Assembly: GCA_016866775.1 (NCBI GenBank) | Contig: VGLJ01000033.1 | Location: 1 to 51,588 of the forward strand | Direction of reading: 5' to 3' | Length of the DNA: 51,588 nt | From: Candidatus Rokuibacteriota bacterium | Lineage (GTDB): Bacteria > Methylomirabilota > Methylomirabilia > Rokubacteriales > CSP1-6 | In this document: in pieces, positions 20,838-39,897 of the stretch | Position numbering within the stretch: position 1 is the stretch's first letter | Layout: each line of letters opens with the position of its first letter | Made by a program: the position numbers and the translations under genes | The notes under the pieces: generated by a model | What the model was told of the DNA's origin: nothing | Seen by the model: only the letters and a program-made list of their open reading frames with translations | The model's database searches: none

Positions 20838-20847
20838 GGCAGGATCG

Positions 20848-23433: not shown

Positions 23434-24782
23434 CGCAAGGTCTCCACCAGTTTTGTCTTCGCCTCGCGCACCGGGGCGCATTCGATGCGATAGCTCGGCG
23501 GGCCTTCGGCCGTGATCATGGGACCGATCGCCGTGAACGCGGTGTAGAACGTCGCGTCGACCACGTTGACCTCCACCGTGCCTTCCCTTCGCGTCGCGCG
23601 CGGGATCGGCACGATGAAGAGATAGTGAAGCTGGCCCTTGACGTTCTGGGCCTCGAAGTCCTTCGGGTCCTTCACCGGGATCGCGGTCCCGTCGACCTTG
23701 ACCTCGACGAACCAGTTGAAGTCCTTCAGCCGTGAGAAGTGGTCCTGCTCGAGCGCGCGCGTCTCCCGCGCCGAGAACTTGCCGTCGCGGTCGCTGTCGT
23801 ACTTCTGGATGATCAGCTCGCTCAGCATCTCGTCGAACGCCCAGTCGACCCTCACACCTTCCGGGCCGTCGGCGCCGAAGCGCACGGTCACCGTGTAATC
23901 GATCCAGGCGTGCGGGTGCGCGCCGGCGCGCGTCGCGCCGAGCGCGAGCACGACGAGCGCGGTGGCCGCGGCGACGCGGGCGACGCGGAAGCGGCGCACG
24001 GGGCCTGTGAGGGCGAAGAGCACCAGCGCCGTGAGCACCACGGAAGCCCCGGCGGCCAGCCGCAGGTAATACGCGAGGACGAGCCCCGTCACCATCGAGA
24101 CGACGGCCAGCCCCATCGCGGTGAACAACGCGCCGCGGAAGCTCCTCGCGAGCGCGAAGCCGGCGAGCGTCGGGATGACGATCATCGCGCTGACGAGGAG
24201 CACGCCGACCATGCGCATTGCGATCACCGTCGTCAGCGCCGTGAGGACCGTGATCACGAGGTTCAGCGCCGCCACCGGCACACCGCTCGTCCGCGCGAGA
24301 TCTTCGTTGAGCGTGATCGCGAGCAAGCGCGGGTAGAGGAGGCCGATCGCGACGCCGACCACGACACCCAGCCCGCCGATCATCCAGAGGTCGGTCACGG
24401 TCACCGTCAGGATGCTGCCGAACAGCACGGCGAAGAGGTCGACGTTGAAGCCGCGGCCGAGGCCGATCAGCACGACGGCGAAGGCCAGGCCCCCCGAGAG
24501 GAAGATCGCCAGCGACGCATCGCCGGTGAGGGCGCCGCGCGTCCGCAGCCGCTCGATGCCGACGGCGCCCGCCGCGGTCACGACGAGCGCGCCGACGACC
24601 GGCGAGACGCCGGCCACGAGCCCGAGCGCCACGCCCGCGAGCGCGACGTGCGCGAGCGTGTCCGCGATCAGCGAGAGCCGGCGCGGCACGAGGAAGATGC
24701 CGATCGCGGGACAGATCAGCGCGGTGATCACGCCGGCGATCAACGCGCGCTGCATGAAGCCGTACGAGAGGAGCTCAGGCAT
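23412..24782 (-). CDS. ZnuB-type ABC permease fused in frame to periplasmic DUF1007 domain
   Basis: 456 codons with no stop. Residues 1-260 are a ZnuB/MntB permease (PAIGIFLVPRRLSLIADTLAHVALAG; AMIVIPTLAG). Residues 262-288 look exactly like a Sec signal peptide (RRFRVAR, hydrophobic core, AGA), followed by the DUF1007 domain starting at H289-P-H291. A complete EF-hand-like loop runs D329 to E340 (DSDRDGKFSARE). A GTG at 23999 is placed to start DUF1007 separately (195 residues, a normal length), so either a true fusion tethers DUF1007 to the channel or a lost permease stop is bypassed by internal initiation. The start overlaps the ZnuC stop. Confidence 0.88.
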   Translation of the reverse strand: MPELLSYGFMQRALIAGVITALICPAIGIFLVPRRLSLIADTLAHVALAGVALGLVAGVSPVVGALVVTAAGAVGIERLRTRGALTGDASLAIFLSGGLAFAVVLIGLGRGFNVDLFAVLFGSILTVTVTDLWMIGGLGVVVGVAIGLLYPRLLAITLNEDLARTSGVPVAALNLVITVLTALTTVIAMRMVGVLLVSAMIVIPTLAGFALARSFRGALFTAMGLAVVSMVTGLVLAYYLRLAAGASVVLTALVLFALTGPVRRFRVARVAAATALVVLALGATRAGAHPHAWIDYTVTVRFGADGPEGVRVDWAFDEMLSELIIQKYDSDRDGKFSARETRALEQDHFSRLKDFNWFVEVKVDGTAIPVKDPKDFEAQNVKGQLHYLFIVPIPRATRREGTVEVNVVDATFYTAFTAIGPMITAEGPPSYRIECAPVREAKTKLVETLRCSYRRR

Positions 24783-25536
24783 GGGCGCAGGGCGGCTCGT
24801 GGCCCACGACGCGCACGGTGGTGCCGTAGAGCGCGGTGAGGGGGTCGTTCGTGAAGTAGTCCTGGGGGCGACCGCAGAAGATCACTCGGCGGTTCAGACA
24901 CGCGAGCTTCGTGACCTCGCGCGCGACGACGCCGATGTCGTGGCTCACGAGGACGAGCGTCACGCCGCGCTCGCGGTTCAAGTGGTGGAGTAACGCGTAG
25001 AAGCTGCTCTGCGTTTCCGGATCGATGCCCCCCGTCGGCTCGTCGAGGATCAGGAGCTCCGGATTGGACACCAGCGCCCTCGCGATCAGCACGCGCTGTT
25101 GCTGGCCCGCGGACAGTGCACCGACGCGATCGCCCGCACGTTCCGTCATTCCCACGAGGCCGAGCGCGTCCGACACGACGTCACGCCCGCTCGAGCCGCT
25201 GCCGAACCATCGCCGCGACGCCACGAGTCCCGTCGTCACGACCTCGTCAACGCGCACCGGCAGCGCGGCGTCGAAGCTCGTGCGCTGAGGAACGTAGCCG
25301 ATCCGGCGCCAGTCACGGAACGCGGTGGGGGCGACGCCGAAGACTCGGATGCTGCCTGCCGACGGCGCCAGCAGACCGAGGATGAGACGGAGCAGCGTCG
25401 TCTTGCCGGACCCGTTCGGCCCGATGATGCCGACGAAATCGCCGGGCTCGATGGTGAACGTGACGTCCTCGAGCACACGAGCGCCCCCGAACTCCATGCT
25501 CGCGTGATCGAGGACGACGACGTCGCTCACGTGCAC
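24775..25536 (-). CDS. Metal ABC transporter ATP-binding protein (ZnuC-like)
   Basis: 253 residues. Walker A G39-PNGSGKT, Q-loop Gln in YVPQR, signature LSAGQQQR (141-148), Walker B LLILDEPTGG (D165, E166), D-loop, and switch His in LVSHD are all intact. The protein powers zinc or manganese import from the cytoplasmic face. The 5' end overlaps the ZnuA-like gene at 25527 and the 3' end overlaps the permease fusion. It is the only ATPase for two binding proteins and two permeases. The C-terminus is short and His-containing (GHEPPCAHA). Confidence 0.94.
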   Translation of the reverse strand: MHVSDVVVLDHASMEFGGARVLEDVTFTIEPGDFVGIIGPNGSGKTTLLRLILGLLAPSAGSIRVFGVAPTAFRDWRRIGYVPQRTSFDAALPVRVDEVVTTGLVASRRWFGSGSSGRDVVSDALGLVGMTERAGDRVGALSAGQQQRVLIARALVSNPELLILDEPTGGIDPETQSSFYALLHHLNRERGVTLVLVSHDIGVVAREVTKLACLNRRVIFCGRPQDYFTNDPLTALYGTTVRVVGHEPPCAHA

Positions 25537-26453
25537 TCCAGCGCGATGCGGAGATTCTTCAGGTTGTCCTCCATCACGGCGACATAGTCCTTGCCCGCCT
25601 TCGCCTCGTCGGCGGTGAGGCCTTCCAGCGGGTTCAGCACGAGCGTCTTCGCGCCGACTTCGGCCGCCAGCGTTTCGGCGAGCTTCGGGCTTACGAGCGT
25701 CTCGAAGAAGATGACCTTCGCTTTCAGCTTGCGCACCAGCCGCACCACGCGCGCGAGCTCGGCCGGACTCGGCTCCGCCTCGGGCGAGATGCCCATGACG
25801 GGCACCTGAAGCAGGCCGTATCGCTTCGCGAGATACGCGAACGCGGCATGCGACACCACGATCTCGCGGCGCGCACAGTCGGCCAGGCCCGTGCCGAGCG
25901 TCTCATGCAGCGCGTTCAGACGAGCCGTGTAATTCACCGCGCGTGTCGCATAGTGTGCGGCGTTCGCCGGATCCGCCTTGGCGAGCCCTGCGCGAATGGC
26001 TTCGACCTGACCGCGGGCGAGCAGCGGATCGAGCCACACATGCGGATCGGGCTCCGCCTTGGCCTTCGCGTGGGTGTGCGTGTCGTGACCCGGCAGGTCC
26101 GCCGTGAGCAACGACAAGCCGGCCGTCGCCTCGACGACGATGGCCTTGCCCGCGGCGGTCCTGGCGAGCCGTGCGGCGCCGGCATCGAAGCCGGCGCCGT
26201 TGTAGACGAACACCGCCGCCTTCTCGACCCGCGCGACGTCGGCTGGCGACGGCTCCCAGTCGTGCGGCTCGACGCCCGTCGGGACCAGCGACACGACCTC
26301 CGCGCGATCGCCCGCGACCTGCCGAGTGAAGTCGGCGAGCGTGGAGAAGCTGGCCACGACGAGCGTGCGTGGCGGCTCGACCTTGGGCTTCTCCTGGCAG
26401 GCGGCGAGTGCCAGGACGACGACGCCGAGCAGGGCCGCCGTTGACGTCTTCAT
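25527..26453 (-). CDS. Metal ABC transporter substrate-binding lipoprotein (ZnuA-like)
   Basis: 308 residues from ATG 26453. A lipobox (VVLALAAC) makes it a lipoprotein. Candidate ligands are His in GVEPHDWEPS, His in DPHVWLDP, His in VSHAAFAYL and the Glu in FFETLVSP. A His-rich loop (GHDTHTHAKAKAEPDPH) precedes the second ligand; such loops are typical of zinc-specific ZnuA and gather or sense zinc. It delivers metal to the permease. Its end overlaps the ATPase gene by 10 bp, and the porin gene lies 7 bp upstream. Confidence 0.93.
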   Translation of the reverse strand: MKTSTAALLGVVVLALAACQEKPKVEPPRTLVVASFSTLADFTRQVAGDRAEVVSLVPTGVEPHDWEPSPADVARVEKAAVFVYNGAGFDAGAARLARTAAGKAIVVEATAGLSLLTADLPGHDTHTHAKAKAEPDPHVWLDPLLARGQVEAIRAGLAKADPANAAHYATRAVNYTARLNALHETLGTGLADCARREIVVSHAAFAYLAKRYGLLQVPVMGISPEAEPSPAELARVVRLVRKLKAKVIFFETLVSPKLAETLAAEVGAKTLVLNPLEGLTADEAKAGKDYVAVMEDNLKNLRIALECT

Positions 26454-26460
26454 GGCCGCC

Positions 26461-27789
26461 TCAGAACTGATGCGCCGGGTGGGCGCCGAGGATGAAGGTG
26501 GCCTGGAAGAGCAGCTCGTCCACGTGCCGCGCGCTCGCGCTGTTGGCCGAGAAGCCTGCGTCCTGCGTGCGTTCGGTCAGCCGGTAGGCGAGGCGGAAGC
26601 GCAGGAACTCCGACGGCCAGAAGGTGACGTACGGCTCGAAGGCCCGCTCGCGCCCACGGTCGAGTAGCTCCGTGTAGTCGTAACGCAGGCCGCCGGCCCA
26701 GCGACGGAATGGCTGCACCTCGGCGTACGCGTACCAGCCGAAGCGGGTGAACGTGTCGTCGGGGATGTCGATGTCGCGCGTGACTTCACGGCGGCGGATC
26801 GACCAGATCCCTTCGCCGCCCACGGTGAGCAATGGATGCAGCCACCCTTCGGGACGGAACTTGTAGCGCACGTCGAAGCCCGGCAGCGTGTTCCTCTGCC
26901 GTTCGGCCGTGCGCCCCGAGGCCACCGAGAGCCCGACCTGGAGCGCGTGCTCATCGGTCAGCTCGAAGAACGTCCGCAGGCGACCGGTGACGAGCGGCTC
27001 GCGGATGCGGCCGCGGCCGAACGCCGTCTCGTTGTCGCCGTTGAAGACGCCGCCAAGGACCTCGAGATAGAACGGCAGGCCGGGGACCCACGTTGCCTCG
27101 AAGCCCTTCTCGATCAGGCCTTCCTCGCCGAAGAAATAGCGATAGACGGCCGGACGATCGATCCATGGGAGGTCGTGCTCGTGGAGCTGGTTGCTCCACC
27201 CGTACCGGGTGCGCATCTGGCCCATCTTCAACTGTGTGTTGAAGGGCAGTGTCAGCAGCGTGAGGTGCGCCTCCGCGAGGCTCACTGCGGTTTCCTGGCC
27301 TCGGGCCTCCTCGCCCATCTCGATGCGGACCTCGCCGCGCGCGTACGGATCGATCTGACCGAAGAGGCTCAGCTCGACCTCGCGCGGGAAGAAGCGATTC
27401 TCGCGGCCGCGGAACGTCCCGGCACCCGCCTTGTCCACGTTGCGCTGCGTGAGGTTGCCCACGAAGTCGCCGGCGATACCGATGTCGAACAAGAGCTGGC
27501 CGGTGCCGCGCTGCTGGGACAGCGTGAACGGCTGGCGAGGCCGCAAGAGATCCATCGTGCTCGGTGGTGTTTGCGTGGCGACCGGCGCGGGGGCCGGCGG
27601 CTGCGATTCGAGTCGGCGGAGACGCTCGGCGAGCGCCTCCATCGATTTCTGATGCTCCTTCTGTAACGCCTCGAAGTTCCTGCGCATCTGTTCGAGCTCG
27701 CGCCGGAGCTCCGCGGCGTCCTGGGCGCGGGCGGGTGGCGCGAGTGCCGTCACGATGAGTGCCACGGCCAGCACGATGAGTATTCGCAT
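26461..27789 (-). CDS. Outer-membrane porin with N-terminal coiled coil
   Basis: 442 residues from ATG 27789, with a GGAGG ribosome binding site. Signal peptide ends at ARAQDA; residues about 25-65 form a coiled coil (ELRRELEQMRRNFEALQKEH), then a Pro-rich linker and a beta-barrel of alternating strands ending in the canonical terminal Phe (GAHPAHQF). The pattern is like phosphate-selective or zinc-regulated porins that pair with metal ABC importers. It stands immediately upstream of the ZnuA-like lipoprotein and so probably lets metal ions cross the outer membrane. Confidence 0.85.
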   Translation of the reverse strand: MRILIVLAVALIVTALAPPARAQDAAELRRELEQMRRNFEALQKEHQKSMEALAERLRRLESQPPAPAPVATQTPPSTMDLLRPRQPFTLSQQRGTGQLLFDIGIAGDFVGNLTQRNVDKAGAGTFRGRENRFFPREVELSLFGQIDPYARGEVRIEMGEEARGQETAVSLAEAHLTLLTLPFNTQLKMGQMRTRYGWSNQLHEHDLPWIDRPAVYRYFFGEEGLIEKGFEATWVPGLPFYLEVLGGVFNGDNETAFGRGRIREPLVTGRLRTFFELTDEHALQVGLSVASGRTAERQRNTLPGFDVRYKFRPEGWLHPLLTVGGEGIWSIRRREVTRDIDIPDDTFTRFGWYAYAEVQPFRRWAGGLRYDYTELLDRGRERAFEPYVTFWPSEFLRFRLAYRLTERTQDAGFSANSASARHVDELLFQATFILGAHPAHQF

Positions 27790-27868: not shown

Positions 27869-28165
27869 TCAGGCGGCGGGCGGTGCGCGCGGAGCGCCGG
27901 TGCGCGCGACGTGGAGCTCGCGGCACGCGGGCGTGAAGCACGGAAGCGCCGCGGAGGCGGCGTCGAGCGTGACGACCGGGACGACGGCGGCTTCCACGAC
28001 GTGCCCGGCGAGTCCGGCGAGGAGCGTCAGGTCGTGTTCCTGGTTGTAGAGGCCGGACTCGGCACCTGCGTGGTGGTGCGGCACGCTGCCGAGCTGGAGC
28101 AGCATCGCCATCGCGGCGAGCAGCAGCGCGGCGACGATCGGCAGACGCGACGCGGGGCGGCGCAT
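27869..28165 (-). CDS. Small exported protein with HHH and Cys motifs, unknown
   Basis: 98 residues from ATG 28165. A signal peptide or membrane anchor (IVAALLLAAMAMLLQLG) is followed by a PHHHAG motif, a hydrophobic middle, and CFTPACREL near the C-terminus. His and Cys positions suggest metal contact. It resembles small exported proteins found in front of metal operons, but I cannot name the family. It heads the zinc-type module and has the best promoter seen in the cluster (28175-28203). Confidence 0.65.
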   Translation of the reverse strand: MRRPASRLPIVAALLLAAMAMLLQLGSVPHHHAGAESGLYNQEHDLTLLAGLAGHVVEAAVVPVVTLDAASAALPCFTPACRELHVARTGAPRAPPAA

Positions 28166-28203: not shown

Positions 28204-28581
28204 CTACGGCCGGGGCCGGACGTCGAACGGGAACGTGCCTTCGACCAGGTGGCCGTCCACGGAGAGCACGCGGTACTTCACCGAATACCCGCCCTTCTTC
28301 AGCGGCGGCACGCCCACCGAGAGCTTGCGCGGGTCCTCGGGGCCGACGACGATCTTGCCGTCGTCGACGCGGACCTGGTCCGCCCATACCGAGAGCGTCG
28401 AGTACGCCGGCTCCAGGCGCTCGTTGAACGTCAGCTCGACCCGTGACGGTGAGATGGCGAGCGTCGCGCGGCGAGCCGGCGACGACTTCACCAGCACCGC
28501 GTGCGCCTCTGCGACGGACACGCGCGCCGAGAGAAGCATCAGCACGGCCGCGAGCGCCACGCGGACGAGGCGCGCCGTCAT
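28204..28581 (-). CDS. copC: CopC-like periplasmic copper-binding protein
   Basis: 125 residues from ATG 28581. Signal peptide cleaves before H27 (EAHAVLVKSSP), leaving an N-terminal His, and D109-G-H111 (SVDGHLVEG) supplies the partners of the Cu(II) site, so the type I His-brace-like centre of CopC looks complete. The size matches stand-alone CopC domains. It carries Cu(II) in the periplasm, usually to CopD, and a CopD-domain protein is encoded at the head of the same run. The start overlaps the previous stop (ATGA). No Met-rich Cu(I) site is evident. Confidence 0.92.
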   Translation of the reverse strand: MTARLVRVALAAVLMLLSARVSVAEAHAVLVKSSPARRATLAISPSRVELTFNERLEPAYSTLSVWADQVRVDDGKIVVGPEDPRKLSVGVPPLKKGGYSVKYRVLSVDGHLVEGTFPFDVRPRP

Positions 28582-28823
28582 CGCGTATCCGGCTCCGACC
28601 GCTTGGCGCTCGTCTCCCCGGAGGCGCCCTGGTCCGGGTTCGGGCGGGTGAGCACCATGATGAGCACGACCACGATCAGCGCGACGAGGAGCGCGAGGCC
28701 GCCGGTGATCAGCGCGGTTGCGAGCGGGCCCATGCCCTCGACGCGGAAGGCGCCGGGATGGTCCGCGAACGCCGGCGTCGCGGCGAAGACGGCCGCGAGG
28801 GTGACGCCGAGACTTCGCGTCAC
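28578..28823 (-). CDS. Small membrane protein of the copper-type cluster
   Basis: 81 residues from GTG 28823, coupled at both ends (GTGA with the cytochrome gene, ATGA with copC). A signal peptide (LGVTLAAVFAATPAFA) leads to a short periplasmic piece DHPGAFRVEGMG, then one strong transmembrane helix and a charged cytoplasmic tail (RPNPDQGASGETSAKRSEPD). No family recognised. Bracketing by CopC and a cytochrome c suggests a membrane anchor or adaptor for them. Confidence 0.7.
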   Translation of the reverse strand: MTRSLGVTLAAVFAATPAFADHPGAFRVEGMGPLATALITGGLALLVALIVVVLIMVLTRPNPDQGASGETSAKRSEPDTR

Positions 28824-29755
28824 TTCGCGGGCGCGCTCCAGTCGAAGGCTACGGTCTGCGGACGCGCATAGCGCGTGCGATCGGGGCCCACGACCGGGAC
28901 CGTCGTCGCGCCGATCGTGAGCACGATGCGCTGCGTGCCCTGCGGGAGCGTTGCGTCCGCACCGTAGTGGAATCCGCTCGGACCGACCATCGGCGCGAGC
29001 TTCACCACGCGCGTCGGCGCGCCCTGGATCTGCACGCCGGCGGACACCGGGAGATACGGCACCGGCTCGCCGGTCTCCGCGTCGCTGACGAACGCCATCA
29101 GGTGTCCCGCCGCGCCGCCCGGCTTCGCCGCGTGGTGCCCGCCGTGTGCGCCGTGACCGGCATGCCCGCCGTGACCCTGAGCGTGGTCTTGCCCGCTCGC
29201 GGCGTGGAACGCGAGACGGACGCGATACGGCCCGATCGTGCGCTCCATCGCCGCGCCGTGATGCCCGTGATGGTGCCCCTGACCACCGCCGTCCTGACTC
29301 TTGATGAACGCGACCAGGTCGACGAGCTGCGCGACGCTGAGCGAATCCGCGTAGCTCGGCATGATCGACGTGCCGTCCGGCCCGATCCATCCCGGCCCCT
29401 CGAGGAGCACCGCGTTCGGCGCGAGGATCGACTCCGCGAAGTACTCCGCAGGATGATGCGCGCCCATCCCGGTGAGCTCGGGGCCGGTCTTGCCATCGCC
29501 ACCCGTGGGCGGGAAGTTGCCGCCCTTGATCAGGTGGCACTTGTAGCACTCGAGGTCGGCGAAGAGCTGGCGGCCCTTCGCGGGATCGCCAGCGCCGGGA
29601 AGCGTGAACTTCCATCCGCGCGGCACGCCGCCGCCGCGGTGCAGCTCGTCCATCGTCACGCGGCGCTGCGCGGCCGCGCCTGTCGCGAGCGTCGCCACGA
29701 GCGCGGTGAGCGCGAGCACGCCCAGCGCCGCGCCGATGACCGTCCGGTGCCTCAT
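28820..29755 (-). CDS. Cytochrome c fused to a Tp34/P19-like metal-binding domain with His-rich inserts
   Basis: 311 residues from ATG 29755. Signal peptide, then a class I cytochrome c domain with C70-YK-C73-H74 and an axial Met candidate in GTSIMPSYAD. After it comes HHHGHH (about 158-164), then a beta domain like Tp34/P19 periplasmic iron-transport proteins (GPYRVRLAFHAAS ... MAFVSDAETGEPVPYLPV ... GFHYGADATLP ... TVAFDWS). A second Gly/His-rich insert (HGGHAGHGAHGGHH) lies at about 188-209 within the first strands. P19 binds Cu and Fe or Mn. Joining it to a haem suggests redox change of bound metal, which is inference. Overlaps with neighbours are 4 bp each side. Confidence 0.85.
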   Translation of the reverse strand: MRHRTVIGAALGVLALTALVATLATGAAAQRRVTMDELHRGGGVPRGWKFTLPGAGDPAKGRQLFADLECYKCHLIKGGNFPPTGGDGKTGPELTGMGAHHPAEYFAESILAPNAVLLEGPGWIGPDGTSIMPSYADSLSVAQLVDLVAFIKSQDGGGQGHHHGHHGAAMERTIGPYRVRLAFHAASGQDHAQGHGGHAGHGAHGGHHAAKPGGAAGHLMAFVSDAETGEPVPYLPVSAGVQIQGAPTRVVKLAPMVGPSGFHYGADATLPQGTQRIVLTIGATTVPVVGPDRTRYARPQTVAFDWSAPAK

Positions 29756-30951
29756 CGCGTCGTCCTCCCCGAGCCTGCGCCGAGGCGCAGGATGATCGTT
29801 TTCGCCCGCGGGAACTGCTCCTCGTGCCACGTCACGACCGCCCGACCGTCAGGGGCCATCGTCACATCTGGAGCATATGCCTTGACCGCCTGGGACAGCG
29901 CCTGAATTGGGCCGAGACGGTCCGTCGTCACCTCGCGCAGGAGCACGCGACGGCGCACCGCCGTGGAATCTTCCCAGACGATCGCGGCGTGGCCCCGATC
30001 GTTCACGGCCAGCCGCGCGTGATCCGGGATCGACGACGTCGAGACGTGGACCCGGCGCGGCGCCGTGAATCGCCGGCCGTCCGTGGACGTCGCGTACAGC
30101 ACGGCCGGCTCGTTGCGCGCGCCTTCCGTGTACCAGACCGCGTGGACGCGGCCCTGACCGTCGATGGCGGCGGTGCCGCCGCGGTGCGGACACGCGGTGA
30201 TCCGCCAGCCGTCGGCGTGCACGCGCGCGGGCGCGCCGAACGTCCGCCCGCCGTCGCGCGAGGCCGCGAGCACCATGTCGCGAATGTCGCCGGGGAAGAC
30301 CTTGCGCCACAGCACCGTCACGATGTCCGGCGCGGCGGCCGCGAGCGACACGCGGCAGCACACGCAGGTCTCGTCGTCGTCCAGCGCGCGCGTGCTCTCC
30401 ACGCGCGTGCCGCGCTCGAGGATGCGCGTGAGATACGTGCGCGGCCGCTCACCGGCGCGCGTCTCGATCCACGCGACCAGCACGGTGCCGTCGGGCGCGA
30501 CGGCGAGCCCCTCGAACGAGTGCGAGGTCGGCGTGTCGTCGGTCACGCGGAGCGGCGGCTCGAACGTCTTGCCACCGTCGAGCGATCGCGACAGCTGCAA
30601 GTCGGACGCGAAGAGGCCGCCCTCCGGCTTCGCGCGGCGCGAGGCCCAGCTCACGTAGATCTCGCCGCGCGACCCGACCGCGAGGCCCGGGCCCTGGTGG
30701 AGCGAATCCGCGCTGAGGCCTTTCGGCGAGACGCGAACGCGCTCGCCCTCGGCCCGCGCCGCGTAGACCACGTTGTCGTGGCCTTCCTGAGCCACCCACG
30801 TGACGAGCGGGCCCTCGCGATCGACCACCAGCGCCGGCGCCGAGAGGCGGACGTCGTGGCCGGCCGCCGGATGGACGATCTCGTGACGCTGGGCCTGGGC
30901 GCCGGCGGGCAGCGCGACGAGCGCCGCGACGAGAACGAGCCGGCGGATCAC
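29752..30951 (-). CDS. Exported BNR/sialidase-like beta-propeller with CVCC motif
   Basis: 399 residues from GTG 30951, overlapping the TonB-receptor stop (GTGA); GTG 30963 gives four more residues. Signal peptide ends at AQAQRH. Asp-box repeats SRSLDGGKTF and SRDGGRTF and evenly spaced propeller strands mark a BNR/sialidase fold. Sialidase active-site Arg triads are not evident, so enzymatic sialidase activity is unlikely. A CVCC motif (DDDETCVCCRVSL) and ACPHRGG add Cys residues that could hold metal. It is embedded among copper and receptor genes and is probably a periplasmic or surface binding protein. Confidence 0.8.
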   Translation of the reverse strand: MIRRLVLVAALVALPAGAQAQRHEIVHPAAGHDVRLSAPALVVDREGPLVTWVAQEGHDNVVYAARAEGERVRVSPKGLSADSLHQGPGLAVGSRGEIYVSWASRRAKPEGGLFASDLQLSRSLDGGKTFEPPLRVTDDTPTSHSFEGLAVAPDGTVLVAWIETRAGERPRTYLTRILERGTRVESTRALDDDETCVCCRVSLAAAAPDIVTVLWRKVFPGDIRDMVLAASRDGGRTFGAPARVHADGWRITACPHRGGTAAIDGQGRVHAVWYTEGARNEPAVLYATSTDGRRFTAPRRVHVSTSSIPDHARLAVNDRGHAAIVWEDSTAVRRRVLLREVTTDRLGPIQALSQAVKAYAPDVTMAPDGRAVVTWHEEQFPRAKTIILRLGAGSGRTTR

Positions 30952-33023
30952 TTCCACCGCCACGCGACGCCGCCGTAGAACGCGCGGCCATCACCCGGCT
31001 CGTAGAAGCGCCCGACGGCGCTGTCGACGACCACCGACGAGGCGTAGGTCACGTCCGCGAGGTTCCGGCCCTCGAAGAACACGCTGAGGTTCCAGCGCTT
31101 CACGTCGTACCCCATGCGCACGCTCACGAGCTCATAGGGCGACGTGCGGTTGCGGTTCTCGCTGTTGACGACATAACCCTGGGGCACGAATTCCACGTTC
31201 GGTGCGACCCAGAAGCCCGAGGCGTGGTCGTAGCGCAGCTCGCCGCGCAGGAAGTGGCGTGGCGCGCCGGGCACGTCGTTGTCGCCGAAGTTCCGATCGT
31301 CGACGAACACGAATCGTGACCACGTGTACGCGGTGCGCGCGGTCAGCGAATCGCCGCCGATCAGATCACGCGCGATCACCACGTCGAAACCGGCCTCCAG
31401 GCCCATGTGCCGCGAGCGGTCGATGTTGCGGAAGCGGGGGACCGTGAACGGCGCGCCCGGAAACGGCTGGACGTTGACGTTCTGGATCTCGTCCCACAGC
31501 TCGATGTCGTAGACCGCCACGTCCCATGTCACGCGACCGAGCGCGCGCCCACGCATCCCCACCTCGAACTGCCACGCCTTCTGCGCGTCGAGCAGGCTCA
31601 GGTTCCGCGTGTTGAGCTGGCCCGGCGCGGTGAGCTCGAGGAGCAGCGGCGGCTCGTACGCATGGCTCGCGTTGCCGTAGACCTGGACCTCCTTGCTGAC
31701 GCGCCCGATCGTCCCGAACCGCGGAACGAGCGCGACGTATTCGACGTCGCCCGACTGGTTGCCGTTGGAGAGGAAGCGATCGCGCACGGCGCGATAGGCG
31801 TACTGGCCGCGCACGCCGGCAACGAGCGTGAGCGCGGACGTGACGTCGAGCTGCGCTTCCGCGTAGAGCCCGACGTTCGTCGCCTGGTTGAGCTGGTTCT
31901 TGATCTTCGCGCCGCGCCGGCCGGCGAGGTTGGCGAGCTGGGCGTCGATCTGGCTGGTGGAGAGGTACTGCAGGCCCGCGGTGAAGCGGCTCGCGAGGCC
32001 GAACAGTGGCGCCGTCTGGATGTACCGGAGCTCCGCGCCCCAGTTGTAGGTGGTCTGGTCGATGATCGCGAAGCTCAGCGGATGATCGAGGTCCTGGTAG
32101 TCGGTCTGCAGCCGCCCCTCGATCGCGCCGCTCTCGCCGAGCGGCGTCCGCACGGTGAGCGCGCCGCGCACGTAGTCGTAGCGGCGCGCGGCCCGGGTGG
32201 CGACGCTGGTCGGATCGGCGCGCCGCGGATCGCGCTCGAGCTCGTCGCGCGTGAGCGCGCCGGGCAGGTTCTCGTCGTTGCGGACATAGCCGAGGTCGAG
32301 CCGCACGCTCGTCCCGCCGCCGAGCTCGTAGCCGAACGACGTGTAGAACCGGTGCCGGATCTGGTCGCTGTAGTCGCGATACCCGTTCAGCTCGACGTCG
32401 GTGAAGCTGCCGTACAGGTCGAACGGGCCGTAGACCTGTCCGGTCGCGAGGTGGTTCTTCCAGAAGCCGAACGAGCCGGCTTCGCTGCGGAGCGCGAGCA
32501 GCCCCTCGTCGTGGCCCGTCTTGGTGACGAGGTTGACGGCGCCACCGAGGGTGAAGCCGCCGAACCTGAGCGCGTTGGCGCCCTTGTAGACCTCGATGCG
32601 CTTGGTGGCGAGCAGCTCGAGCGACTCGAAGTCGCTGAAGCCGTCGGCCTGGCCGTAGACGAAGCCGTCGAGCAGGACGTTGACCCCGCGCAGGTGGAAG
32701 TTGTTCCGGAGGCCCGAGCCGCGGATCGAGAGCTGGCTCTCGTCGGCGGCGCCCGCGCGGGGCCGGATCAGCACGCCCGGCGTGTAGTCGAGCGCGTCTT
32801 TCAGGTTCGCCGACCTCGCGCTCTCGATCTCGTGCTGCGGGATGACGTTCACGCTGCCCGGCACGCGCTCCAGCTCCTCGCGCGTCTGCTCGTCCGTCTG
32901 CCGGCGCTCGGGTACGAGCCGCGGGCTTTCCACGACGACGGGCGGAAGGGTCGGTGGGGGCTGTGCCCCGGCCGTGGCGGCGGTCATCGCCACGATGAAA
33001 GACATCAACAATATCGGTCTCAT
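30948..33023 (-). CDS. TonB-dependent outer-membrane receptor
   Basis: 691 residues from ATG 33023. Signal peptide, candidate TonB box around PPVVVESPR, plug domain (VPGSVNVIPQHEIESARSANLKDALDYTPGVLI ... IRGSGLRNNFHLRGVNVLLDG ... VEVYKGANALRFGG), and a 22-strand barrel rich in aromatic-alternating strands. The plug resembles the FecA/siderophore type. The barrel ends in WRWK rather than an aromatic terminal residue. The ligand is unknown; genes around it for CopC, CopD, cytochromes and P19 suggest copper or iron chelates. The tonB gene lies 8 bp upstream, so the energy transducer is co-expressed. Confidence 0.93.
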   Translation of the reverse strand: MRPILLMSFIVAMTAATAGAQPPPTLPPVVVESPRLVPERRQTDEQTREELERVPGSVNVIPQHEIESARSANLKDALDYTPGVLIRPRAGAADESQLSIRGSGLRNNFHLRGVNVLLDGFVYGQADGFSDFESLELLATKRIEVYKGANALRFGGFTLGGAVNLVTKTGHDEGLLALRSEAGSFGFWKNHLATGQVYGPFDLYGSFTDVELNGYRDYSDQIRHRFYTSFGYELGGGTSVRLDLGYVRNDENLPGALTRDELERDPRRADPTSVATRAARRYDYVRGALTVRTPLGESGAIEGRLQTDYQDLDHPLSFAIIDQTTYNWGAELRYIQTAPLFGLASRFTAGLQYLSTSQIDAQLANLAGRRGAKIKNQLNQATNVGLYAEAQLDVTSALTLVAGVRGQYAYRAVRDRFLSNGNQSGDVEYVALVPRFGTIGRVSKEVQVYGNASHAYEPPLLLELTAPGQLNTRNLSLLDAQKAWQFEVGMRGRALGRVTWDVAVYDIELWDEIQNVNVQPFPGAPFTVPRFRNIDRSRHMGLEAGFDVVIARDLIGGDSLTARTAYTWSRFVFVDDRNFGDNDVPGAPRHFLRGELRYDHASGFWVAPNVEFVPQGYVVNSENRNRTSPYELVSVRMGYDVKRWNLSVFFEGRNLADVTYASSVVVDSAVGRFYEPGDGRAFYGGVAWRWK

Positions 33024-33031
33024 TTGAACGC

Positions 33032-33841
33032 TCACTTGAGGCGAAACTCGACGGGGAGGCGCACCCACATCGCCACCGCCTGTTCGCCACGTCGGGCGGG
33101 GTCGAAGCGCCAGCGGCGCACCGCATCGCTCGCCGCCTCGTCGAGATCGGGATGGCCGGCCGACTGCTCGATTTCCACGTTTCCGACACGGCCGTCCTCG
33201 AGCACGTGCACGCGTAGCAGCGTGGTGCCCTGAACACCGAGCCGCTTTGCGCTGGACGGATACGACGGCCGCACCTGGTACCCACCGGTCGGGCGCGCCA
33301 CCTGCGTGACACCGCTATCGCGCGGGATCGAGGCGACCGCCGGCGGTGCCGACTTCGTCGCGTTCTCCACCATCGACACCCCGCCCTCCGTCGCCCGCCC
33401 GGCGGGCGCCGGCGCCGTGGTCGGCAAGGAGACGGCCGGCGCCGAGGCTTGCGCATTGGGAGCGGGGGCCACGGTGGGCGATGCCGCTGGCGGCGGAGCG
33501 CCGGCGGGCCGCGGCGGCGCCACGGAGGCCGGCTCGTCGGCCTTCGGTGCCGTGTCGATCTTCGGCGGCGGGGCCGCGATCGGCCTCGGCAGCGTCAGCC
33601 GCTTGGGCGGTGCGGGCGCGGCAGGAGGCGCCTCGACGACACGCGGCGCCTCGATGACGACGAGGTCGACCGCGATCGCGTCCGGCACGCGGGCGCTCGC
33701 GCGCGGCACGACGCCGGCCGCCACGGCCACGAGGCCCAGGTGAAGCACGAGCGACGCGCCGATGGGCGCGACGCGCGTGAGCGCGGCGCGATCGAATCGA
33801 ATGATGTCTCCTCCTCCGCGAGTCCGGATGACCCGGCGCAC
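33032..33841 (-). CDS. tonB: Energy transducer TonB
   Basis: Pattern: one N-terminal transmembrane helix (VAPIGASLVLHLGLVAVAAGVV), a long Pro/Ala-rich periplasmic spacer, and a C-terminal TonB domain (SYPSSAKRLGVQGTTLLRVHVLEDGRV ... ASDAVRRWRFDPARRGEQAVAMWVRLPVEF). It carries proton-motive force to the receptor next to it. The only canonical in-frame start is GTG 33841 (269 residues), which has no ribosome binding site. A strong GGAGGAGGAG at 33817-33808 is followed by ATC 33805 and ATT 33802, so a non-standard ATT start (256 residues) with a neat short N-tail is at least as likely. Confidence 0.9.
   Translation of the reverse strand: MRRVIRTRGGGDIIRFDRAALTRVAPIGASLVLHLGLVAVAAGVVPRASARVPDAIAVDLVVIEAPRVVEAPPAAPAPPKRLTLPRPIAAPPPKIDTAPKADEPASVAPPRPAGAPPPAASPTVAPAPNAQASAPAVSLPTTAPAPAGRATEGGVSMVENATKSAPPAVASIPRDSGVTQVARPTGGYQVRPSYPSSAKRLGVQGTTLLRVHVLEDGRVGNVEIEQSAGHPDLDEAASDAVRRWRFDPARRGEQAVAMWVRLPVEFRLK
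33808..33817 (-). promoter_or_regulatory. Strong Shine-Dalgarno with no ATG, GTG or TTG after it
   Basis: GGAGGAGGAG on the minus strand; the next in-frame codons are ATC (33805) and ATT (33802), 5-8 nt on. This decides between the ATT start and the GTG at 33841 for tonB. Confidence 0.5.
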
Positions 33842-33878
33842 CGGCGAGCCGGCGGCGCGGGCGTGCGAGCGAAACGAC

Positions 33879-34421
33879 TTAGGCGGAGCGGAGGGTGGGC
33901 GGCGCGCGGCCGGCGTCGGGCGCGAGGCTGCGCGCGACGAGGGCCGGCGTGGTGACGGTGGTGACGGCGCTCTGAACGAGCGCGAGCGGTGAAGCGTCGA
34001 CGATCGCGTCGGCGACGTCCGCGCTGAGCTGCGCCGACACCCCGGCGACCAGGCATTGCGTGATGTCGTCCGTCTGGCCGAGGTGGTGCGTCGAGTGGAC
34101 GCCGGCCTCGAACGCGAAGACCGCGGCGACGAGCACGAGCGCGAGGGCCACCGCGCGGCGCGGCCGCCACGCACCCGCGACCGCGACAGCGGCCAGCGAC
34201 AGCAGGACGGCCCACGGAGCCGAGGGCGCAGCAGGGCCGGCGCCCAGCGTCTCGCCGGAACGCGCAATGCGTGCTGCGCGTGCCGTTTCGGCGGACGGCA
34301 GCGCATTCGTCGAGAGCGTCTCGTGGACGGGGATGTGCGCCGCCGCCGGCGCGGCACCGAGCAGCGTGGCGCCGAGCACCATCGTGGCGAGAGCGAGGAC
34401 GACGAGCGCGGTGCGGGACAT
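33879..34421 (-). CDS. Membrane protein of unknown function in the receptor cluster
   Basis: 180 residues from ATG 34421. A signal peptide (ALVVLALATMVLGATLLGAAPAAA) leads to a short exported segment starting AHIPVHETL, followed by two hydrophobic helices (WAVLLSLAAVAVAGAW; VALALVLVAAVFAFEAG), then STHHLGQTDDITQCL with two His and one Cys, and a tail. No family recognised. Placement directly upstream of tonB suggests a role in the same uptake system. A TAGGAT hexamer 7 nt before the ATG predicts a leaderless promoter here. Confidence 0.65.
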   Translation of the reverse strand: MSRTALVVLALATMVLGATLLGAAPAAAHIPVHETLSTNALPSAETARAARIARSGETLGAGPAAPSAPWAVLLSLAAVAVAGAWRPRRAVALALVLVAAVFAFEAGVHSTHHLGQTDDITQCLVAGVSAQLSADVADAIVDASPLALVQSAVTTVTTPALVARSLAPDAGRAPPTLRSA

Positions 34422-34428
34422 CACGGGT

Positions 34429-34434
34429 ATCCTA
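34429..34434 (-). promoter_or_regulatory. Putative -10 element (TAGGAT) of a leaderless transcript
   Basis: TAGGAT on the minus strand, 7 nt before ATG 34421, in the 60-bp gap after the YVTN gene. It would start a sub-operon for tonB and the receptor. Confidence 0.45.
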
Positions 34435-34481
34435 CACCGCAAACAGGCGGCGGAGCCGGTCAGTTCCGCCCGGACCTGCGG

Positions 34482-35468
34482 CTAGCGGCCGGCCCGGCGC
34501 GTTTCCTCGGGACGCAGCGCCATGCCGTGCGGCGCCTTGCCGACCTGGATCCGGCGCACTTCCTTGTGCGTGGCGACGTCGATGACCGAGACCGCGCCGG
34601 CGTAGCGGTTGGTGACGAGCGCGTAGCGTCCGTTCGGCTCCATCGTCACCAGGTCGGGATACCCGCGGGAGTCGACGACCTTGACGATCTTGTCGTCGGC
34701 GGTGCTGACGACCACCACCTTGTTGGCCTTGCGCAGCGTCACGTAGAGGAACTTGCCGTCGAGCGTCAGCGTGGTCTCGTGCACCACGCCCGGCATCGCG
34801 ATGCTCGCGACCTGCTTGTTGGTGACGGTGTCGATCTTCAGCACGGCCTTGTTCTCGCCCGCGCCCGCGTAGAGCACCTTGCCGTCCGGGCTGAGCGCCA
34901 GCCCCATCGCGTCGCCGCCGCCGTGGATGATGCGCGCGACCGCGGTGCGCGTCTGCGTGTCGATCACGGTCACGTCACCCGCCGTCTCGCCCGAGACGTA
35001 GAACAGCCGCGCGTCACGCGAGAACACGCTGTGCGCCGGCCACGTCGAGACCTCGAGGCGCCACTCGATCTTCTCGGCCTTCAGGTCCCAGACGATGATC
35101 TCGTCGTTGCTGGCGTCGCTCGACCAGTCGAGCACGTAGAGATAGCGGCCGTCCGGGCTGAAGCTCAGGTTGTACGGGTTGCCGCCGATCTTCACGCGCT
35201 TCACCAGCTTGCGCGCCTGCGCGTCGACGACGCCGAGATCGCGGCTCTTGTCGTAGACGACCCACGCCTGCTTGCCGTCCGGGTGGAACACGATGCGATT
35301 CGGCTTGCCCTGGCCGAGCGGGATCGTGCCCGTCACCTCGAAGGTGTTGGTGTCGATGATCGAGATCGAGTTCGACTTCGTGTTCGTGACGTAGAGGCTC
35401 GCCGCGCCGGCCGGTGCCGCGAGGGCGAGCGTGACGAGGAGCGCGAGGGCGCGGGCGGCGGACGTCAC
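34482..35468 (-). CDS. Exported YVTN-type beta-propeller protein
   Basis: 328 residues from GTG 35468, preceded by AGGAGG at 9 nt. A signal peptide (ALALLVTLALAAPAGAA) is followed by SLYVTNTKSNSISIIDTNT and about seven repeats of the YVTN/YncE kind (each with a D-x-D-G or SPDGR turn). Such propellers are periplasmic scaffolds; some work with TonB receptors or haem and copper enzymes (nitrous-oxide reductase, cytochrome-like). No catalytic residues are obvious. It lies between the CusF-like gene and the receptor group. Confidence 0.88.
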   Translation of the reverse strand: MTSAARALALLVTLALAAPAGAASLYVTNTKSNSISIIDTNTFEVTGTIPLGQGKPNRIVFHPDGKQAWVVYDKSRDLGVVDAQARKLVKRVKIGGNPYNLSFSPDGRYLYVLDWSSDASNDEIIVWDLKAEKIEWRLEVSTWPAHSVFSRDARLFYVSGETAGDVTVIDTQTRTAVARIIHGGGDAMGLALSPDGKVLYAGAGENKAVLKIDTVTNKQVASIAMPGVVHETTLTLDGKFLYVTLRKANKVVVVSTADDKIVKVVDSRGYPDLVTMEPNGRYALVTNRYAGAVSVIDVATHKEVRRIQVGKAPHGMALRPEETRRAGR

Positions 35469-35482
35469 GGGAGCGGGCCTCC

Positions 35483-35839
35483 TCAGGGTTTTTCGATCGC
35501 GGTCACGACCACGAGCGGTGGCGATCCACGCACCGTAAATCGTACCGCGTCGCCCACGGAAAGCGACGGGGGAATCTTCGCTCCGGCCAGGCGGAAGCCC
35601 ATGGTCATGCCCGGCATGTAGCCCGGGATGTCCGCGTGCGTGAGCACGACGATGCCGAGCTCGGGCACGATCGCGCGGACCACGCCCTCGACGTCACGCC
35701 ACTCGCGCTCGGGGCCGCCCCAGGTGATCGTCCGGGCATCCGCCTGGGCGGCGGTGCGGCGCCACAGGTGCCAGCCACCGGCGGCTCCGACGACGACCAG
35801 GAAAAGATTGACCAGCAGGGCGGCCGTGAGCGCCCTCAA
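35483..35839 (-). CDS. CusF-like copper-binding protein with N-terminal anchor
   Basis: 118 residues from TTG 35839, which overlaps the stop of the CopD fusion (TTGA). Residues 5-24 form a membrane anchor or uncleaved signal. The domain has the CusF/Cu-binding signature: H68 (VLTHADIPGYM), then M75, M78 and M80 in GYMPGMTMGF. CusF-type proteins bind Cu(I) and Ag(I) in the periplasm and hand it to pumps or to cytochrome oxidase assembly factors. It is directly downstream of the CopD fusion, so the two should be made together. Confidence 0.85.
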   Translation of the reverse strand: MRALTAALLVNLFLVVVGAAGGWHLWRRTAAQADARTITWGGPEREWRDVEGVVRAIVPELGIVVLTHADIPGYMPGMTMGFRLAGAKIPPSLSVGDAVRFTVRGSPPLVVVTAIEKP

Positions 35840-37821
35840 TGCACGTGCTCGTCGGCCGGCGGGGCGTCGGCCTTCTCCTGGTTCAGCTCCTGGATCTCCG
35901 CGAGCAGGCGATTCATGTCGCGCGCGGTCTCGGTGCGGCTCGACCAGCGTGCGCGGAGGTAGCCGCGGCGGTCGATCAGGAACTCGGCGTGCGGCGCCGT
36001 GTCGAACCGCCGGTAGACGGAGAGGATGTCGAGGCCGCCATCGGTGACGACCGGGAAGAGCACGCGCGGGGTGTCGCCGAGCTTCTTGATCGCGTCGGGG
36101 GACGCGTCGGTCGGCACCGCGATGATCTCGACCCCCAAGGTGGTGAGCATCTGATACGCGTCGGCGAGCTGGGCGAGACGCTCGCGCGAGCGCGGCAGCG
36201 TGTAGAGGACCAGGAGGACGTGACGGCCGCCGCGATAGTCGCGCAGCGACCGTGGGGGCGCCGGGGCGACGGTGTATGAGAAATCCGGCGCCACCAGCCA
36301 TGCGCGGCCCGGATCGACGGTCGGGCCCATCCAGCGCGCGGTCTCGAGCACGCCGAGCAGGCGCACGTAGTTGATCACGTCCCAGCGCTGCTCCTCGCTG
36401 AGCGTCGCGGCGAACCCGGGCATCGCGGCGCGCGCGATCCCGTGGCTCACCCACCAGAAGAGGTCGCCGGCGGTGTGATCGCCGGTGTGTGGCGCGCGAA
36501 GATCCGCGGGCGGCCGCGGCAGGCGCGGCGCCGCGGGGCCGTCGCCGCCGCCCGAGCGTCCGTGGCAGACCGCGCAATGCTCGTCGTAGACGGCCATCCC
36601 GCTCACGATCGACGTCGCCGTGTAGGGGACGGTCGGGCGGTGATAGGTCGTGGGATAGGCGTCGACCGCGAGGGGAATCAGCGCGAGCGCGCCACCCATC
36701 GTCACGAGCACGAGCGCGCCGGCGAGCAAGGGCAGCCGCAGGCGCTGGCGCCGCAGCATCGCCACGCAGAGGAGCCCGACGAGGCCGATGACGGCCACCT
36801 GGCTCCCGACGAGGACTTGCCACCGCGCCTCGGTGCTGCGCTCCAGCGCCGCCGTCGCGAGCCGGAACGCGAACGGCCACGCGGCTTGCTCGTGACGCGC
36901 CGGTGGCGTCACGCCGAGCGCCGCGACGACGGCGAGCACCGCGGCGATCAACACCGCCTCGGTCGTCACCGACGCGGCCAGACGCCGCATCGCGGGGCGG
37001 CCGATCGTCTCGGCGTCGCCGCTCAACGCCGGCAGGAGACGCCGGCGATGACGCGCGGCCACGATCAGCGCGAGCGCGAACGCGACGAGCTTCACCAGAA
37101 GCAGGCGGCCGTACGTCGTGCCGATGAGCCCGGCGACGTCCGCGATGTGCGTCGTCGCGTTCACGACGCCCGAGAGGCCGAGCGCGATGACCGTGACCAG
37201 CGCCCACCGCGAGAATCGACGTCCGGCCACGACCGCGTACGGCCGCGCGTCCGCGCCGCTCTCCCGCGAGGCCGCGCGCAGGAGCAGCGCGAGGGCAGGG
37301 AGCGCGCCGGCCCAGACGCCCGTGGCGGCGAGATGGATGAAGTCGACAGCGATCGCACGGATCGCACCGGGCTCGACGGCCGCTGCGTGCCCCGCGGCGC
37401 TGGCGAGCGCCAGTGCGAGGGCCGCGAGCGCCGCGGTCTCGCCGTGCAGCGCGACCCAGTCGACGCGCGCGACGACGCGCAGGCCGCCGCTGACGAAGAA
37501 GCCGGCGAGCGCGAGGAGCGCCAGGCGGCTCAGCCACACGAGACCGCCCTGCGTCTCGGTGGCGACGCGCAACAGCGCGCGTGGCTCGAACGCGGCGCCG
37601 GCGCGGCCTTCGAGGAGCGCGGTCTGATGCGCGAGGACGCCGACGCCCGCGACGACGGCGACGAGCAGCAGCCAGCGCGCCGCGCGCGCGACGCGCCGCT
37701 GCCACGCGAGCGCGGTGGGCCGGTCGGACGCGCCGGCGACGAGCAGCATCACCGCGCCGCCGACGAGCGCGACGGACGCGACGAGGTGGATCCAGCGGAG
37801 GGCGAGCGCGAGCGTGCTCAC
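35836..37821 (-). CDS. Three-part fusion: CopD-like membrane domain, cytochrome c, Cys-less redoxin domain
   Basis: 661 residues from GTG 37821. Residues 1-310 form a CopD-like polytopic domain (FSRWALVTVIALGLSGVVNA; GRLLLVKLVAFALALIVAARHRRR). Two further helices follow (about 330-385). A cytochrome c domain carries C416-AV-C419-H420 and an axial Met in ARAAMPGFAATL. The last part (about 500-645) is a thioredoxin-like/peroxiredoxin-like domain (HVLLVLYTLPRSRERLAQLADAY ... VEIIAVPTDASPDAIKKLG ... AEFLIDRRGYLRARW) in which the usual active-site Cys is absent. It would sit in the inner membrane with haem and redoxin parts in the periplasm, joining copper transport to electron transfer. Confidence 0.88.
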   Translation of the reverse strand: MSTLALALRWIHLVASVALVGGAVMLLVAGASDRPTALAWQRRVARAARWLLLVAVVAGVGVLAHQTALLEGRAGAAFEPRALLRVATETQGGLVWLSRLALLALAGFFVSGGLRVVARVDWVALHGETAALAALALALASAAGHAAAVEPGAIRAIAVDFIHLAATGVWAGALPALALLLRAASRESGADARPYAVVAGRRFSRWALVTVIALGLSGVVNATTHIADVAGLIGTTYGRLLLVKLVAFALALIVAARHRRRLLPALSGDAETIGRPAMRRLAASVTTEAVLIAAVLAVVAALGVTPPARHEQAAWPFAFRLATAALERSTEARWQVLVGSQVAVIGLVGLLCVAMLRRQRLRLPLLAGALVLVTMGGALALIPLAVDAYPTTYHRPTVPYTATSIVSGMAVYDEHCAVCHGRSGGGDGPAAPRLPRPPADLRAPHTGDHTAGDLFWWVSHGIARAAMPGFAATLSEEQRWDVINYVRLLGVLETARWMGPTVDPGRAWLVAPDFSYTVAPAPPRSLRDYRGGRHVLLVLYTLPRSRERLAQLADAYQMLTTLGVEIIAVPTDASPDAIKKLGDTPRVLFPVVTDGGLDILSVYRRFDTAPHAEFLIDRRGYLRARWSSRTETARDMNRLLAEIQELNQEKADAPPADEHVH

Positions 37822-38856: not shown

Positions 38857-39893
<1,037 letters not shown>

Positions 39894-39897
<4 letters not shown>

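Follow-up and report, generated by a model that had tools for sequence, protein, structure and literature searches.

The window, i.e., the whole 51,588-nt stretch of DNA that was analysed, has a GC content of 71.6% and comes from a soil bacterium, an uncultured member of the Rokubacteria (Methylomirabilota). Ten ORFs occupy its minus strand at positions 28204 to 37821 (genes A to J); an ORF check confirmed that all are present, and they had been correctly named in the initial annotation. The same-strand run extends past position 28204 with K, a porin-like protein, ZnuA, ZnuC and a ZnuB-DUF1007 fusion. The features are the following.

35836..37821, minus strand: A, CopD, cytochrome c and a cysteine-free thioredoxin fold in 661 residues, with an invariant C-terminal HVH (Pfam, alignment, structure comparison)
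35483..35839, minus strand: B, CusF-type periplasmic copper-binding protein with an N-terminal membrane anchor (PF11604, E 6.5e-14)
34482..35468, minus strand: C, seven-bladed YVTN/YncE-type propeller, the most conserved part (Pfam, neighbourhoods, structure search)
33879..34421, minus strand: D, candidate metal-sensing arrest leader (HSxHH...C motif, 48 residues, RAPP)
33888..34018, minus strand: C-rich, G-poor 3' end of D, a possible Rho-loading stretch (composition)
33032..33841, minus strand: E, TonB, start codon uncertain (TonB_C, E 1e-22)
30948..33023, minus strand: F, TonB-dependent receptor related to receptors adjoining copper-uptake genes (Pfam, homologue neighbourhoods)
29752..30957, minus strand: G, sialidase-like propeller with TCxCC...CP cysteines (family found in copper islands)
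28820..29755, minus strand: H, cytochrome c and P19/Tp34-like domain (Pfam, profile comparison)
28578..28823, minus strand: I, small membrane protein (kept beside the core in some relatives)
28204..28581, minus strand: J, CopC with conserved H27, D109 and H111 (Pfam, alignment)
27869..28165, minus strand: K, second candidate arrest leader, just outside the original ten-gene region (His motif, 48 residues, RAPP)
27892..27983, minus strand: C-rich, G-poor 3' end of K (composition)
26461..27789, minus strand: L, porin-like outer-membrane protein (after K in 30/30 K loci)
25527..26453, minus strand: M, ZnuA-type metal-binding protein (PF01297, E 1.1e-85)
24775..25536, minus strand: N, ZnuC-type ATPase (profile search)
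23412..24782, minus strand: O, ABC-3 permease fused to DUF1007 (profile search)

The description of most junctions as 4-bp overlaps was too strong, because such overlaps occur at only four of the nine (A/B, G/H, H/I and I/J), the first being conditional on the A/B TTG start being right. F and G overlap by ~10 bp, and the remaining four junctions are gaps of ~8 to 60 nt. D lies within the run, 60 nt past C and a short gap ahead of tonB.

Pfam confirmed CusF, CopC, the cytochrome c-P19 fusion, the TonB C terminus and the plug and barrel of the receptor, as well as the union of CopD, cytochrome c and AhpC/TSA in the single protein A. The latter scored 78 bits against CopD PF05425 (cut-off, 32.1) and stayed below the cut-off of the NCBIfam CopD equivalog. 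Its 'redoxin' part has kept the fold but lacks the catalytic cysteines of the active site in all 29 homologues, and we therefore rejected a redox-active role of the SCO/ResA or peroxiredoxin type. Thus, the in-transit redox change proposed earlier draws support from two c-type hemes, whose ligands are invariant in A, but not from the cysteine-free redoxin. The P19 domain of H was weak in a single-sequence search (Pfam Iron_transport/P19, E 2.9e-4) and firmer by profile comparison, which matched Tp34, P19 and FtrA structures (E 1.5e-6 to 2.5e-3) and supported homology to P19/Tp34 (PF10634). It shares the conserved APM...HYG of P19/FetP and Tp34, but unlike them it is fused to a cytochrome c, is detectable mainly by profile and has no FTR1 partner.

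In the homologue alignment of B, residues H68, M75, M78 and M80 are invariant. H27, D109 and H111 of J, which we take to be the Cu(II) ligands of CopC with H27 at the mature N terminus, are kept in 28 to 29 of 29 CopC homologues, placing J with the Cu(II)-binding CopC type. As to the two propellers reported, Pfam confirmed the YVTN/YncE type for C, while G gave only sub-threshold BNR_2 and PDIAV matches. C carries invariant His, Met and Asp residues, and a structure search with it retrieved generic YVTN, NirF, hydrazine-synthase and YncE propellers only; as its score was also far under the cut-off, identification as an AztD-type zinc chaperone was discarded. AztA-, AztB- and AztC-like scores in the run all fell under the NCBIfam equivalog cut-offs, which places the run outside the AztABCD zinc system. 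The G family is located in Roseobacter copper islands, and the TCxCC...CP cysteines are common to G and these relatives.

Gene neighbourhoods were compared across 95 genomes of the phylum Methylomirabilota. The refuting condition set at the outset, that these genes are not conserved together in any relative, was contradicted, because other Rokubacteria show the same core order and again have D, TonB and receptor linked to H, A, B, C and I. The rare combination nevertheless does not hold as one set, as it consists of two modules with different distributions. The widespread core comprises the CopD-cytochrome-pseudoredoxin protein, CusF, the YVTN propeller, cytochrome-P19 and CopC, followed by porin and ZnuA; A was found in 54 of the 95 genomes, and the core is kept with K, porin and ZnuA in many relatives. 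The TonB cassette (D, TonB, receptor F and propeller G) occurs in 3/95 genomes, the only ones with strong matches to F and to G, and in a few further genomes D, TonB and/or a different receptor adjoin the core.

In Rhodoferax, Polaromonas and others, genes that look like pmoC-pmoA-pmoB are followed by CopC and then by a homologue of A. This resembles the CopC-CopD genes of pmo/amo operons (PMC6189053), in which CopC likewise precedes a CopD-containing protein, but A has extra cytochrome c and pseudoredoxin domains. Such fusions are tied to copper-enzyme supply across phyla. In this genome, no copper enzyme is tied to the cluster: four COX2 genes lie elsewhere, and pmoA is absent, so a role in supplying a copper monooxygenase was dismissed.

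The closest plasmid relatives of F adjoin DUF2946, YcnI/DUF1775 and 'copper uptake system-associated' NF033672 genes, and a relative in Methylosinus is located near methanobactin genes. F might instead import PQQ or lanthanide-PQQ like PqqU/YncD, and its pairing with a YncE-like propeller would then match the E. coli arrangement. C is YncE-like by Pfam, YncD/PqqU are the only close solved structures for F, with homology over the full length (E 2.5e-44 and 1.5e-43, ~640 residues), and PqqU is its best NCBIfam model. However, identity to YncD/PqqU is 29%, and the score against the PqqU model is 180 bits for a cut-off of 1200. The PQQ-binding signature of PqqU consists of Y/F/W99, R304 and R365 (PMC12124388); F has Phe at position 99, but both alignments place Asp at 365, and only one of the two retains R304. 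In one alignment, F is 30 to 35% identical to receptors beside copper genes and 26% to PqqU, and no PQQ alcohol dehydrogenase exceeded the model cut-off in the genome. As F deviates from the PqqU signature, we rejected PQQ import, which we regard as improbable.

Copper thus appears to be the best-supported cargo, because F relatives lie beside copper-uptake genes, G relatives lie in copper islands and the PQQ signature is not found in F. The copper families CopC, CusF and CopD are all present (Pfam). Of the TonB-powered copper/iron pathway proposed initially, the copper-directed envelope route is supported, and its iron side comes down to the weak P19 domain. If that domain and the receptor formed a ferrous or siderophore route, the cluster would handle iron or an iron chelate, and generic siderophore-receptor models do match F; this reading has little probability, given that the run showed neither FTR1/FetM nor siderophore genes and that the copper families and the copper-linked neighbours of F and G relatives point elsewhere. 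A role in detoxification, with parts that bind or export excess copper, would fit the occurrence of CusF and CopC/D in resistance systems and of G relatives in resistance islands. It is rather unlikely, since the run yielded no P-type ATPase, RND pump or multicopper oxidase, TonB receptors serve import and the receptor led by CruR, the copper-sensing leader of Bordetella pertussis, is repressed by copper (PMC9426467). Somewhat less unlikely is that everything from A to the Znu genes serves to acquire zinc or a mixture of transition metals, with D and K both sensing zinc: the conserved grouping of K, porin and ZnuA with the core, the AztABC-like scores and the all-histidine motif of most K members speak for it, and the copper links of CopC, CusF, CopD, F and G, the near-invariant Cys of the D motif and the Cys as third K ligand in divergent members speak against it. 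The ZnuA-type ABC genes do suggest that part of the run is for something other than copper. We therefore favour as likely that the cluster serves copper acquisition and delivery, with the TonB cassette under D and the porin-ZnuA genes under K.

As regards regulation, D is the most informative gene. It had been counted as one of two small membrane proteins, its C-terminal RAPP arrest motif being overlooked, and it probably reads as a leader instead. Its putative ligands are H109, H112, H113 and C123, the last being its only Cys, and RAPP (172-175) lies 5 residues before the end. K has H30-x-H32...YN-x2-H44, with RAPP (93-96) 2 residues before the end. D was found in 37/95 and K in 30/95 phylum genomes, and 30 members of each family were compared. 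All 30 D tails carry RAPP, and those of K carry RAPP (28) or RGPP (2), 2 to 8 residues from the C terminus in the members measured. The K motif takes the form HxH...[YWF]Nxx[HC]. In 60/60 members, 46 to 48 residues separate the last motif residue from RAPP/RGPP. Among the 52 genes of the window, D has the largest and K the fourth-largest excess of C over G in the last 78 nt, and this excess is larger in both families than in other genes (P ~1e-10, uncorrected for relatedness).

D and K could also be ordinary small membrane proteins in which RAPP arose by coincidence, since both are hydrophobic and rich in Ala, Pro and Arg at the high GC content of the window. Yet among 1750 called proteins, 25 have RAPP within their last 16 residues, where the overall RAPP frequency of these proteins predicts 0.79, and the 25 are mostly encoded just ahead of outer-membrane protein genes. 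Moreover, tail and spacing are fixed although the stretch between motif and RAPP has diverged (median identity, 20 to 23%), and the sole substitution is RGPP, the other arrest-competent motif (PMC12992588). Coincidence is thus very improbable, and D and K probably act as nascent-chain switches that sense metal.

The model for D and K is built on gene content, conservation, motifs, fixed spacing and C-rich 3' ends; from these we infer arrest, metal binding, Rho action, the direction of regulation and copper as cargo. F would import a copper species, free or chelated, over the outer membrane with power from E; in the periplasm, G, H, B and J would bind copper and hand it on, the hemes of H and A would set its redox state, and the CopD part of A would act as membrane step or reductase for copper-enzyme assembly. 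A ribosome translating D would stall at its C-terminal RAPP, with the HSxHH...C motif, ~48 residues upstream, therefore placed just outside the ribosome. When metal is scarce, the stalled ribosome would cover the C-rich Rho-loading stretch and transcription would proceed into tonB and the receptor gene; copper binding to the motif would release the stall, allowing Rho access and transcription termination. K may act likewise on the porin-ZnuA genes through its His or His/Cys motif, possibly with another metal such as zinc.

CruR is the DUF2946 uORF of the CruR-BfrG copper operon; its CXXC copper motif lies 45 residues from RAPP, near-constant within one or two, and a C>G stretch serves as Rho-loading site for Rho-dependent termination at the leader end (PMC9426467). 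D and K resemble it as small exported proteins in which a nearly constant spacer links a metal motif to a C-terminal RAPP, and in having a C>G stretch near the leader 3' end; D also shares its position before a TonB-dependent receptor gene. However, D and K use HSxHH...C or HxH...[YWF]Nxx[HC] in place of CXXC, with a spacer of 46 to 48 instead of 45 residues. CruR genes head operons, whereas D lies inside the run, which has two leaders; D precedes TonB, receptor and propeller, and K precedes porin and ZnuA. The DUF2946 profile (PF11162) matched neither family, and any CxxC occurs in 2/30 D and 0/30 K reading frames, so DUF2946 membership was rejected; in the phylum, one genome only exceeded the PF11162 cut-off, at a divergent D-like locus.

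RAPP arrest was demonstrated in vitro in PMC12992588, which reports secreted small ORFs with C-terminal RAPP/RGPP before metal-homeostasis genes as universal in Gram-negatives. D and K belong to this general class, whose members precede TonB- or Cu-related genes, but the accessible part mentions no fixed His/Cys-to-RAPP register, porin-ZnuA targets or Methylomirabilota. CutF of Rhodobacter capsulatus (PMC9973294) likewise senses copper as an exported nascent chain and has a proline-rich C terminus, but it acts through a hairpin that covers the following Shine-Dalgarno sequence. We discarded such a hairpin switch here, because the intergenic RNA folds were no better than shuffles (z 0.88 and -0.26).

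It is quite possible, if short of likely, that D and K represent two unrecognised His/Cys nascent-chain metal-sensor families in Methylomirabilota, with a 46- to 48-residue ruler to a RAPP stall, and that the run is split into sections for different metals, the receptor part responding to copper and the porin-ZnuA part to zinc or some other metal. Very few nascent chains that sense metal by stalling have been characterised in detail, and these are of the CXXC/CXXXC DUF2946 type. D and K would extend the same ruler-like geometry to other ligands, other uptake genes and an uncultured phylum, allowing a direct test of whether ligand chemistry sets the sensed metal while spacing and RAPP stay fixed. 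The cluster also suggests a likely copper-acquisition route for Rokubacteria. Leaders beside proteobacterial relatives of F have motif-RAPP spacings of 45, 45 and 48.

The initial annotation described ten contiguous minus-strand genes of a putative TonB-powered metal pathway, and all ten ORFs were recovered on that strand with families matching the names given. Most junctions had been said to carry 4-bp overlaps; we found such overlaps at four of the nine. Beyond CopC the same-strand run goes on with K, the porin-like L, ZnuA, ZnuC, and a ZnuB-DUF1007 fusion, in a window of 71.6% GC.

37821-35836, minus strand: A, CopD + cytochrome c + thioredoxin fold
35839-35483, minus strand: B, CusF
35468-34482, minus strand: C, YVTN propeller
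34421-33879, minus strand: D, leader candidate with C-terminal RAPP
about 33841-33032, minus strand: E, TonB
33023-30948, minus strand: F, receptor
30957-29752, minus strand: G, propeller
29755-28820, minus strand: H, cytochrome c + P19-like
28823-28578, minus strand: I, small ORF between H and J
28581-28204, minus strand: J, CopC
28165-27869, minus strand: K, leader candidate with C-terminal RAPP
27789-26461, minus strand: L, porin-like protein

The C-termini of both D and K carry RAPP. Among 1750 called proteins of the window and the relatives' loci, RAPP occurred within the last 16 residues 25 times (not all independent, as some loci are the same contig taken twice) versus 0.79 expected from its frequency in the remainder of these proteins. 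The next same-strand gene, where readable, coded for a TonB-receptor, a barrel or the porin, except for one gene of no assigned family. Profile searches of our phylum set of 95 genomes, in which named relatives are Candidatus Rokubacteria or Methylomirabilota, detected D in 37 and K in 30. At the 60 loci read, all D proteins end with RAPP and K with RAPP (28) or RGPP (2), and the gene for porin L follows K in 30 of 30. D-type leaders with RAPP are also found in genus g33, class-level relatives in which pmoA is common (loci L188, L190-L192, L194, L196 and L197); two of them lie about 480 nt upstream of a CopD-like gene.

Most D proteins harbor an HSxHH...C motif, and K an HxH...[YWF]Nxx[HC] motif that ends in His among close relatives and in Cys among distant ones. 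Between the last motif residue and the Arg of R[AG]PP, the spacer measures 46 residues in 2 D sequences, 47 in 11 and 48 in 17; for K it is 47 in 7 sequences and 48 in 23. Median ungapped pairwise identity within this stretch is 0.20 for D and 0.23 for K. In the leaders preceding proteobacterial relatives of F, the distance from CxxC to R[AGD]PP is 45, 45 and 48 residues. The C-minus-G content of the last 78 nt is highest for D and fourth for K of the 52 window genes, and both families exceed other genes (Mann-Whitney P 1.3e-10, relatedness ignored). These C-rich 3′ ends resemble the C > G stretch marking the Rho site of CruR, the copper-sensing DUF2946 leader of Bordetella pertussis. The Pfam DUF2946 profile did not recognize D or K. 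As its sole match over cut-off in the phylum was a divergent D-like locus, D is probably distantly related to CruR.

Judging from these sequence features, D and K are very likely arrest-type leaders, and they likely use the spaced motif for metal sensing. Copper is the favored metal for D; that K senses another one, zinc, is a tentative proposal. By analogy with CruR, metal excess would shut off the genes downstream of each leader. In this window D sits inside the run and may therefore serve as an attenuator within it, separating A-B-C from E-J; K would be another such element, placed after J and ahead of the porin-Znu genes. RAPP leaders ahead of TonB and copper genes form a known class (PMC9426467, PMC12992588). 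New relative to that class would be the two families with the ligands they use, porin-ZnuA as a target and a register kept strictly at 46-48, none of which was found in these articles, supplementary tables aside; some family members may already figure in those tables.

The cargo of F is probably copper. Its nearest relatives on plasmids (up to 35%) adjoin genes for DUF2946 proteins, YcnI and the "copper uptake system-associated" NF033672; a Methylosinus relative lies near methanobactin genes, and one in Azospirillum has no copper neighbor. The closest solved structures are PqqU/YncD (29% identity). The published PQQ-receptor signature of PqqU includes R365 (PMC12124388), at which F departs from it, and F was rejected as a PQQ receptor. 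G belongs to a family that in Roseobacters is annotated "sialidase family" and sited in copper islands, and the cysteines TCxCC and CP are common to both. J keeps the residues that we take to be the Cu(II) ligands of CopC. The C-terminal domain of H groups with P19/Tp34; of the APM...HYG motif it retains M and H, which are metal ligands in P19. In propeller C (34482-35468), His146, Met188, His230 and Asp272 are invariant and His314 is present in 18 of 19 sequences; these repeat-equivalent positions suggest a putative metal or cofactor site. In Methylosinus sp. C49, a small CxxC ORF with RAPP or RGPP precedes each of two receptors near methanobactin genes (L171, 6291-6698 and 11473-11868).

Matches to A at E below 1e-20 occur in 54 of the 95 genomes and 25 of 33 genera, and A-B-C recurs with CopC, K, the porin and a ZnuA in many of them; conservation is highest for C (66-79% identity). 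Strong matches to F, and likewise to G, were limited to two further phylum genomes, G070 and G054, where D-E-F-G are grouped on a contig that lacks A. In G070, G is followed by two CopC genes; in G054 the receptor is split over two overlapping frames (L056, G054:C120), either a frameshift or an assembly error. Elsewhere, a TonB gene adjoins H-A-B (G043, G044, G045, G062), with I where the contig allows, CopC genes nearby in all four, and in G062 also C, as far as the contig allows. D and a second outer-membrane barrel accompany this arrangement in G043 and G062, and the receptor is of a different type, QHQGGGKAEQYLIRG, in G045 and G062. The proposed gene combination is thus kept in relatives, in the form of two modules that travel together and a receptor that can be exchanged.

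Beyond the phylum, homologues of A are present in Bradyrhizobium (order CopC-A-CusF), Methylocapsa and Deltaproteobacteria MAGs. In Polaromonas, Rhodoferax, other Betaproteobacteria and one alphaproteobacterium, CopC-A lies downstream of three genes read by eye as pmoC-pmoA-pmoB (L132, L135-L137, L139, L146 and L147); CopC and CopD genes are known members of pmo/amo operons (PMC6189053). The thioredoxin domain of A has become cysteine-free in 29 of 29 homologues but invariably retains His611 and an HVH at its end; the tail is disordered in the AF2 model. We interpret A as a protein that would bind copper and transfer electrons rather than act as a thiol oxidoreductase. No pmoA was found in this genome, and its four COX2 matches are possible copper clients. 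Among the genomes in the set that belong to the window's own family, G038 alone has a pmoA-family gene (C365:6592-7248, PF02461, E 4.1e-55).

Divergent from A lies a HAD-family hydrolase gene (38091-38831, plus strand), which may be part of the system because a homologue adjoins CopC in L040, L048, L053 and L063. Just upstream of the run, 38857-42471 (minus strand) codes for a separate ABC importer with a PotA/PhnT-like ATPase, a double permease and a binding protein. The ABC-3 permease-DUF1007 fusion is a single 456-aa ORF (23412-24782, minus strand). Downstream of the Znu genes, 20028-23415 (minus strand) codes for a second ABC-3-like permease, a second ZnuA and a NicO protein, with an apparent Fur/Zur-type regulator, identified by eye, among them (21768-22202, minus strand).
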